Shown piece after piece: positions 38,861-47,213 of a stretch of DNA of 64,000 bases. Location: assembly GCF_014695385.1 (NCBI RefSeq), contig NZ_JACJOD010000028.1, forward strand, positions 62,001 to 126,000. The letters run 5' to 3'. The notes below the pieces were generated by a model, which saw only the letters and a program-made list of their open reading frames with translations, did no database searches and was not told the origin of the DNA. The translations under genes and the position numbers were made by a program. This stretch comes from Trichocoleus sp. FACHB-46. Lineage in GTDB: Bacteria; Cyanobacteriota; Cyanobacteriia; FACHB-46. Every line of letters starts with the position of its first letter. Within the stretch, counting starts at the first letter, position 1.

Positions 38861-38960
38861 CCCAGCCCAGGTTAGTCCAGTTTTAAGAGTGTGTAATTGC
38901 GCGATCGTAAACTTTGGTTTCAATGTCATGAAACCGATAAAATCCGAGTATTCTGTTAAT

Positions 38961-38978
38961 AGAAGCTAATTAGCTTCT
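38961..38978. repeat. Perfect 18-bp palindrome
   Basis: AGAAGCTAATTAGCTTCT is its own reverse complement. It lies about 100 bp behind the amidotransferase stop and ahead of the duplicated structured element. It could be an operator or a terminator stem, although no T-run follows. Confidence 0.55.
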
Positions 38979-39016
38979 GAGACGAGTAAATCGTTACGTT
39001 GCACGTCAAGAGGAGG

Positions 39017-39232
39017 TTAAAAATTAATTCCTCATCCTGTTTACTGGACCAAATTACCGCTGCATTTAAACTGGTTCTTGGTATTTCCTCTCCACTTTAA
39101 TCGGGAGCTCTGTTGCTGATAGCTTCACTGAAATTTACGCTTCAATGAAGTCTTACATCAGCCCAACTCCAAGTAACCTCAACCTATTTGGGGAAGTCAA
39201 TCACAAGAATCGTTCTGGGTCGTAAGTAGTCC
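39017..39232 (+). ncRNA. Candidate structured RNA element, copy 1
   Basis: First of two diverged tandem copies. A stem is formed by GTTGCTGAT (39112-39120) with ATCAGC (39157-39162) and CAAC (39164-39167). Inside it CTTCACTGAA (39123-39132) pairs with TTCAATGAAG (39141-39150) with one mismatch. The 3' part ends in TTCTGGGT (39213-39220). Copy 2 keeps the outer stem but has a different, still complementary, inner stem. The strand is assumed from the downstream gene. No known family was recognised. Confidence 0.5.
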
Positions 39233-39249
39233 AGTTTCCGATCGATGCA

Positions 39250-39460
39250 GATTACAAGTAAGTTCCTTTGTGAATTTATCGACCGAAATTACAACAGCAT
39301 CCAATTCTGTTTCTCATATCTCCCTTCTGGATTAAAAGAGAGCCTTGTTGCTGATACCTTTGTCAGAAAGATTTAGTTTAAATCTTTTTCAGCACAACTC
39401 TAGGCAAGCTCATCGTATTGGAGGAGATTATTGTAAGGAACGATTCTGGGTGCTGTTGTT
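39250..39460 (+). ncRNA. Candidate structured RNA element, copy 2
   Basis: Second copy, about 235 bp downstream of copy 1. The outer stem GTTGCTGA (39347-39354) pairs with TCAGC (39389-39393) and CAAC (39395-39398). The inner stem AAAGATTTA (39367-39375) pairs perfectly with TAAATCTTT (39379-39387) around a three-base loop. TTCTGGGT recurs at 39444-39451. It ends 17 bases before the phytol kinase start, so it could be a leader of that gene or a free small RNA. Confidence 0.5.
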
Positions 39461-39477
39461 GTTTGTTGATTTAAAGA

Positions 39478-40218
39478 ATGGAATTAAGTGCTTTATTAGC
39501 TAATTTCCTAGTTCGAGATATTGCAGCTACGGCAATCACCTTTGCGATCGCCCTCAGTTGGCTCAAGCTAGTAAATACGCTGGCGCAACGAGGCTGGCTA
39601 GAACAAAAACTCAGCCGCAAAATTATTCATATTGGGACAGGGCCGTTGTTTGTCCTCTGCTGGCATCTCTACAGCGAGCAGGCGATCGCGCGGTATTTTG
39701 CAGCCCTGGTACCTCTCGCAATCACCCTTCAGTTTTTAGCGATCGGCACCCAGCTCATTGCCGATCCAGCGACTGTTCAAGCCATGACCCGTGAGGGCAA
39801 GCCCGCCGAAATTTTGCGGGGACCACTGTATTACGGCATTGCCTTTATTTTCTGCACAGTGTTGTTCTGGCGCAATTCCCCTGTCGGCATTTTGGCTTTA
39901 ATGCTGATGTGTGGCGGTGATGGCTTAGCAGATATTGTGGGGCGACGACTAGGCAAACACAAGTTACCCTTTAGCTCTCATAAAAGCTGGGCAGGCTCAA
40001 CAGCCATGTTTTTGGGCAGTTTCGGATTTGGCTTAGGATTTCTAATGCTCTTCAATCACTTGGGCCACTTTCAACTACCTCTCAATTTTGCGAATACCGC
40101 AGGTGCAGTAGCAGCGATCGCGTTTGTGGCAACTCTCGTAGAAGCTCTACCATTCCCAGATATCGACAACATCACGCTGGTGGGAGTGGCGATCGCAATG
40201 GGGTTGTGGCTGTTGTAG
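39478..40218 (+). CDS. Phytol kinase-like (VTE5/dolichol kinase family)
   Basis: A 246-residue membrane protein with about seven hydrophobic helices. Family signatures are LSRKIIHIGTGPLFVLCWH, then MLMCGGDGLADIVGRRLGKH and LPFSSHKSWAGSTAMFLGSF. Phytol kinases re-phosphorylate phytol freed from chlorophyll for tocopherol synthesis. The Synechocystis relative is slr1652 as I recall. The start is ATG 39478, immediately behind the duplicated structured element. Confidence 0.85.
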   Translation: MELSALLANFLVRDIAATAITFAIALSWLKLVNTLAQRGWLEQKLSRKIIHIGTGPLFVLCWHLYSEQAIARYFAALVPLAITLQFLAIGTQLIADPATVQAMTREGKPAEILRGPLYYGIAFIFCTVLFWRNSPVGILALMLMCGGDGLADIVGRRLGKHKLPFSSHKSWAGSTAMFLGSFGFGLGFLMLFNHLGHFQLPLNFANTAGAVAAIAFVATLVEALPFPDIDNITLVGVAIAMGLWLL

Positions 40219-46849: not shown

Positions 46850-47095
46850 GCAACCCCTAGTTCCATGAAATCACTACTCAATCTCTACAAGCTTGTGAGA
46901 ATCAATTCCCTGAGCCTGCTGAAGTTAGGTTGAGACCGCTCTCGCCCTTAATTAAACTTTTAGGGTTTTAGCACTGCCTTGCAATTTCGTCAATTTTGAT
47001 ACAACTGTTTCTGTTAGCAACTGGCTATATATAGTCTGGGTCATTCATTATTCTCGAAAAAAGCTTTCTAGAGAAGTTAAAAAAACTGAAAACTG
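46850..47095. other. Upstream region of the guanidine riboswitch operon
   Basis: Non-coding. The promoter of the operon must lie here; AT-rich words such as TATATATAG near 47026 may be its -10 region, but no confident -35 or regulator site (for example NtcA GTA-N8-TAC) was seen. Confidence 0.4.
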
Positions 47096-47213
47096 TTACA
47101 GCTTCTAGGGTTCCGACCTATCCATCGAGATAAGTGCCTGGTCCGAGAGAAGCGGATCTATTAACTTTTATAGAGTTTGATAGGTTACACGGCGGGATAA
47201 AAGCCCGGGAGAG
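47095..47213 (+). promoter_or_regulatory. Guanidine-I (ykkC class I) riboswitch aptamer
   Basis: Hallmark blocks of the ykkC/guanidine-I consensus are present in order: CTAGGGTTCCG (47105-47115), CTGGTCCGAGAGA (47138-47150), ACACGGCGGGATAAAAGCCC (47187-47206) and GGGAGAG (47207-47213). Between the first two, a P2 hairpin can form. The aptamer binds guanidinium. The last block is shared with the terminator stem at 47199-47252, so ligand binding should stop termination and turn on the operon. Confidence 0.93.

Follow-up and report, generated by a model that had tools for sequence, protein, structure and literature searches.

A candidate family of structured RNAs in cyanobacteria with a Shine-Dalgarno-like motif and repeated tandem duplication

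Results

Two tandem copies of a structured element

The window, by which we mean the whole 64-kb stretch of DNA that was analysed, carries two tandem copies of a long irregular hairpin at 39053-39233 and 39288-39464, each about 180 nt in length, the second of which ends 13 nt ahead of an open reading frame at 39478-40218; all of these features, and those described below for the window, lie on the + strand. A sequence-only reading of this locus had noted two copies some 235 nt apart, and this is the start-to-start distance between the matches to our refined covariance model R2 (130.6 bits for copy 1 and 148.6 bits for copy 2). The sequences that it had listed as shared, GTTGCTGA...TCAGC-N-CAAC and TTCTGGGT, are likewise common to both copies. 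The start that it gave, 39017, has to be moved about 60 nt upstream. The element begins with an 18 nt hairpin, H1 (AGAAGC-TAATTA-GCTTCT, 38961-38978), which is seen in the fold and in homologues, and continues with the 5' domain of copy 1 (38979-39050), which is conserved in homologues and has 78% identity over 64 nt to the genome of a different family. Within this domain AGTAAA (38985-38990) is able to pair with TTTACT (39040-39045), and the Shine-Dalgarno-like purine motif AGGAGGT occupies 39011-39017. With the conserved 5' domain counted from H1 (38961-39050), the unit size is about 300 nt.

Copy 2 is complete. The 5' strand of its closing stem (CAACAGCATCC, 39292-39302) forms 11/11 pairs with the 3' strand (GGGTGCTGTTG, 39448-39458), which together with a T-rich tail (39448-39464) makes up a presumed terminator. 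In copy 1 the closing stem is degenerate (5/11 pairs by stem count), and because it has gone, R3, a covariance model built from other genera, aligns at positions 12-161 of 174 only. On this point, too, the earlier description needs correcting: the closing stem survives in copy 2 only. Copy 2 folds better than all of 200 dinucleotide-preserving shuffles (0/200 as good; z -4.65) and copy 1 folds more weakly (2/200 as good; z -2.53). It had also been suggested that the inner stem re-evolved between the copies. A hairpin is possible in each apical region, but this region is the hypervariable apex of the family, and the strong covariation sits in other helices.

Homologues in about half of the genera sampled

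DNA-level searches alone reached few homologues. The same tandem pair is present in two other species of the window's genus at 91% identity, and outside the genus, in other families, the search turned up a relative with one copy (G017) and a further tandem pair (G130). A covariance model made from nine sequences of the window's genus, G017 and G130 (R1) matched 46 of 291 cyanobacterial genomes. With R2, which has 36 pairs, the family was found in 161 of 390 cyanobacterial genomes and in 84 of the 160 genera of the class, or about half of those sampled. A covariance-model search against cyanobacterial genomes had been set beforehand as the test that could refute a structured RNA, through a lack of homologues with covarying stems; covarying homologues were found, and the idea stands.

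R3 was built from 28 sequences, none of them from the window's genus. In the 64-kb window it matches copy 2 with 116.5 bits (E 4.9e-31) and copy 1 with 81.9 bits (E 2.4e-21, over 39064-39220), followed by the antisense shadow of copy 2 and then nothing better than E 0.58. Since a model built solely from other genera matches both copies, we attribute them to homology rather than chance. The whole genome has one further copy (G000:C30:257550-257708).

In a search spread over the phylum, all matched genomes belonged to the same class. One large family (f32), which is probably the heterocystous group, has the RNA in 186 of 218 genomes. When 84,980 species genomes were scanned for an exact pattern, there were 16 matches, all of them to cyanobacteria (Leptolyngbya, Halomicronema, Scytolyngbya, Phormidium tanganyikae and others). 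Genomes carry from one to seven copies, with repeated independent tandem duplication and arrays of three in G319, G314, G348 and G188.

Compensatory change in the helices

Read from 5' to 3', the RNA consists of H1, the 5' domain with the purine motif and the long hairpin, which is made up of an 11-pair closing stem, two more helices, a GGGAG/CTCC helix and a hypervariable apical hairpin. Among 102 distinct sequences, 35 of the 36 base pairs have changed on both sides and 85.9% of cells pair; the closing stem is paired in 94.2% of cells, with both-side changes in 11/11 pairs. The covariation score is 0.353, compared with 0.211 (sd 0.005) in shuffles and 0.07-0.11 when partners are slid by 1-3 columns; the alignment A7, having been fitted to the model, is biased in its favour, but MAFFT alignments made without such fitting (A4 and A6) show a matching picture. 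This pattern of substitution indicates that the structure is maintained by compensatory change.

H1 takes the forms GAAGC/GCTTC, GGAGC/GCTCC and GGAAC/GTTCC in homologues, and 93% of its cells are paired in one sub-group. In the sub-group with CCTGGCAGAT, the 5' domain could form ACAGC/GCTGT and GTTAG/CTAAC helices that would cross as a putative pseudoknot, enclosed by an outer CAGAT/ATCTG helix. Here ACAGC/GCTGT is 89.5% paired with a few both-side changes and the second helix is just 66.7% paired, a modest excess over shuffles.

Signals at the two ends of the presumed transcription unit

Upstream of copy 1 in the window lies a conserved element, GTAAACTTTGGTTTC (38907-38921). Of 97 distinct homologues, 45 have the corresponding pattern RTAAA[CG]TTT on their upstream side, usually some 150 nt ahead of the core; in shuffled 75-nt regions the chance rate is 0.4%. 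A longer form, RTAAA[CG]TTTNNTT, stands ahead of many copies; it is too distant for a -35 box and is probably the site of a regulator. A -10-like box, TATTCT (38949-38954), is located about 7 nt ahead of the presumed 5' end, and by inspection a TATNNT-like box is similarly placed in many homologues. A scan for the sigma-70 consensus and for terminators gave nothing, its short-loop terminator definition leaving out a hairpin of the present kind.

Downstream of the closing stem the T fraction is 0.41, as against 0.29 upstream. In 12 sequences no more than 7/11 closing-stem pairs remain, and every one of these is an upstream member of a tight array, with gaps of 46-68 nt. Such arrays with degenerate upstream stems are those of the window, G130, G042, the Halomicronema-type arrays, G182 and G156; because some loci duplicate one another, the independent arrays number about six. 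The last members of arrays keep 8-11 closing-stem pairs, and in arrays with gaps of at least 217 nt every copy has 10-11. Confinement of stem loss to the upstream copies of tight arrays suggests that the closing stem and its T-rich tail behave like a terminator. Judged from these sequence signals, each unit would have a promoter of its own and would end at the closing stem and T-rich tail, and the tight arrays are probably co-transcribed as one RNA.

A purine motif that no conserved reading frame follows

A stretch of 5 nt or more from the anti-Shine-Dalgarno complement AAAGGAGGTGAT recurs at one position in 92 of 101 distinct sequences, in registers that vary (AAAGGAG, AAGGAG, AAGGAGGT, AGGAGGT, GAGGT). 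The motif reaches at least 7 nt in 51 of 94 sequences, compared with <2% in shuffled regions; its apparent conservation is inflated by shared ancestry. By motif scan it has been lost from the unit of copy 2 in the window (39288-39464) and is absent from a few other units, and hence is dispensable in some of them. Pairing of the motif with the RNA's own TTTCCTC strand was considered and rejected, as there is no co-variation between the two (mean duplex 5.483, and 5.483 when permuted). The motif could instead be a protein-binding loop.

The canonical 16S tail GGATCACCTCCTTT is present in three member genomes. In the window's genus, GGATCACCTCCTTT was not found in G000 and G001, nor GGCTGGATCACCTCC in G000, G001 and G002; either the tail differs there or the stretch lies outside the searched sequence.

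No ATG, GTG or TTG is conserved at a useful spacing after the motif. One sub-group does have an open frame with similar peptides. A small protein gene or leader peptide was nevertheless rejected, since the distance from the motif to a conserved ATTTCC is spread over the three residues modulo 3 (37/25/25 in 87 sequences), the best frame contains a stop in 27 of the 87, and near-identical copies within one genome (L085) are mutually out of frame. As these frame statistics show no conserved reading frame, we treat the RNA as non-coding.

Neighbouring genes

The commonest neighbour is a gene for a 255-aa protein beginning MAIIALKAWYL (L099:2439-3206, +, and orthologues), which lies downstream at 28 of 86 loci, in every case on the RNA's own strand and at many of them 22-130 nt away. 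The further copy in the window's genome is also upstream of this gene. The protein has no match in Pfam, NCBIfam or PADLOC, and its AlphaFold model (mean pLDDT 45.7) is too poor for use. By eye, its C-terminal half (IFLCYQT...PSPKVCVEIGYAL) appears TIR-like. The remaining homologues are intergenic, among unrelated genes in many contexts. Since contexts vary and the upstream element is conserved, the RNA is best regarded as a stand-alone gene, and the family as one that is not tied to a single neighbour and lacks a conserved frame.

The open reading frame at 39478-40218 (+) had been called a phytol kinase gene, and a link of the RNA to chlorophyll breakdown had been hinted at. No Pfam or NCBIfam match supports that name, even with permissive thresholds. 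Of the 86 loci, the window's is the only one where a relative of the gene adjoins the RNA; the two congeners have it there as well. A riboswitch for phytol or the phytol kinase was rejected on this count, the association with a regulated gene across homologues being confined to the window's genus.

Comparison with catalogued RNAs

The window element has no match in Rfam 15 at gathering score, and with permissive thresholds the element and 18 homologous loci gave chance-level matches only. The idea of a structured, duplicated non-coding RNA without a catalogued family is thus borne out, covarying homologues having been found, and we consider it very probable that this is a genuine RNA family absent from Rfam. 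In the literature searched at the level of main texts, including RNA discovery papers on 26 and 50 genomes and a paper on heterocystous sRNAs, no described family matches it; the main text of the 26-genome paper names cyanobacteria just in a cited title, and that of the 50-genome paper does not name them. The RNA class has no relative in the catalogue, although single Nostoc transcripts have perhaps already been seen without being recognized as members.

Two transcripts of Nostoc sp. PCC 7120, 2462444f (258 nt) and 268249f (340 nt), are described as Northern-verified, intergenic, terminator-bounded and conserved in heterocystous cyanobacteria (Brenes-Alvarez et al. 2016, PMC4734099). The account of them given there describes no structure that they share and, going by BLASTn, restricts them to heterocystous strains. 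Compared by description only, they resemble the present RNA in size and intergenic location, and they might be members of the family. Yfr1 and Yfr2 are likewise stand-alone conserved cyanobacterial RNAs, but Yfr1 is 54-57 nt long and has a C/U-rich conserved unpaired motif, CACUCCUCACACC (PMC4734099), whereas the present RNA, of about 300 nt, has a purine motif, a different fold and no Rfam match. OLE, ROOL and GOLLD (PMC12286853) are also large, strongly structured, widely conserved orphan RNA classes; the present RNA differs from them in being shorter, cyanobacterial and without an Rfam match.

Discussion

That a structured RNA so large, well conserved and widespread in a major phylum stands outside Rfam marks a considerable omission from the bacterial RNAs known so far. 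Covariation defines the shape of the RNA, so that designed mutations can now be used to test its function, and whatever that function is, the models and coordinates allow annotation across cyanobacteria and look-up in existing transcriptomes.

For the function we tentatively propose a mechanism in which a stand-alone RNA, co-transcribed where its units are in tandem, docks on the 30S subunit through the anti-Shine-Dalgarno sequence; in its entirety we see this as possible rather than expected. In the window both units would form one transcript of about 500 nt, to which copy 1, its terminator lost, would contribute the promoter, the 5' hairpin and the purine motif, and copy 2 the terminator. 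The purine motif, which no start codon follows, would base-pair with 16S rRNA at its anti-Shine-Dalgarno end. Docked on 30S subunits in this way, the RNA would modulate initiation or store the subunits, and its long hairpin would be the body that binds a protein or the ribosome. The weakest step is the docking on 16S rRNA, which we infer because the purine motif slides in register. In a broader reading, this uncatalogued class of cyanobacterial RNA, with members in about half of the genera sampled, would imitate a ribosome-binding site that lacks a start codon. By docking on the anti-Shine-Dalgarno end of the 16S rRNA it would control translation or keep 30S subunits in store, and the loss of internal terminators would have joined its tandem units into multi-domain transcripts. 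It is doubtful whether all of these parts will hold together. If true, anti-Shine-Dalgarno docking would be a new mode of translation control in oxygenic phototrophs.

Among the alternatives, the RNA might act in trans as a base-pairing sRNA or as a scaffold, its targets being mRNAs or proteins that have no connection with the ribosome. The multi-copy, intergenic habit and the RNA's own upstream element would fit, and variable apical hairpins could diversify targets. Against it, the hypervariable apex offers no conserved unpaired seed and most of the conserved unpaired bases are those of the purine motif, so that we find this rather unlikely.

A cis-acting leader or riboswitch, which would sense a ligand or protein and control the downstream gene, is suggested by the recurrence of the MAIIALKAWYL gene at short distance on the same strand and by the position of copy 2 directly ahead of an open reading frame. 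Most other copies, however, lie ahead of unrelated or opposite-strand genes, several genomes have 4-6 dispersed copies, and the terminator-like closing stem would sever the downstream gene unless regulated. Control in cis is unlikely on these grounds.

The long-hairpin fold also brought 6S RNA to mind. The identity was rejected because RF00013 matches elsewhere in the same genome (G000:C13:465193-465380, 87.2 bits) and not at this locus, even at permissive E-values. In common with 6S RNA (RF00013; ssaA in cyanobacteria), the present RNA is stand-alone, widespread in cyanobacteria and shaped as an irregular hairpin of about 180-200 nt with internal loops; it differs in its extra 5' domain with the purine motif and in its multi-copy tandem habit. 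A 6S-like RNA acting in trans, whose long hairpin binds a protein such as RNA polymerase and whose purine motif is a mere contact loop, would agree with the overall length and shape and with a stand-alone RNA that is widely conserved and sometimes multi-copy. With a canonical 6S RNA already in the genome, and with the strongest sequence conservation including a 5' domain that 6S lacks, such a role seems improbable. That a transposon or phage has spread the RNA as part of a mobile or selfish element, as the six dispersed copies in each of the large genomes G161, G168 and G351 might suggest, is very improbable, given that the dispersed copies have no protein neighbour in common, that the exact-pattern scan of viral contigs gave 0 matches and that the gene-linked copy recurs in several families, which points to vertical inheritance.

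Elsewhere in the window, a Guanidine-I riboswitch aptamer at 47094-47213 (+; RF00442, 81.1 bits, E 7.3e-13) is the only match to Rfam at gathering level.
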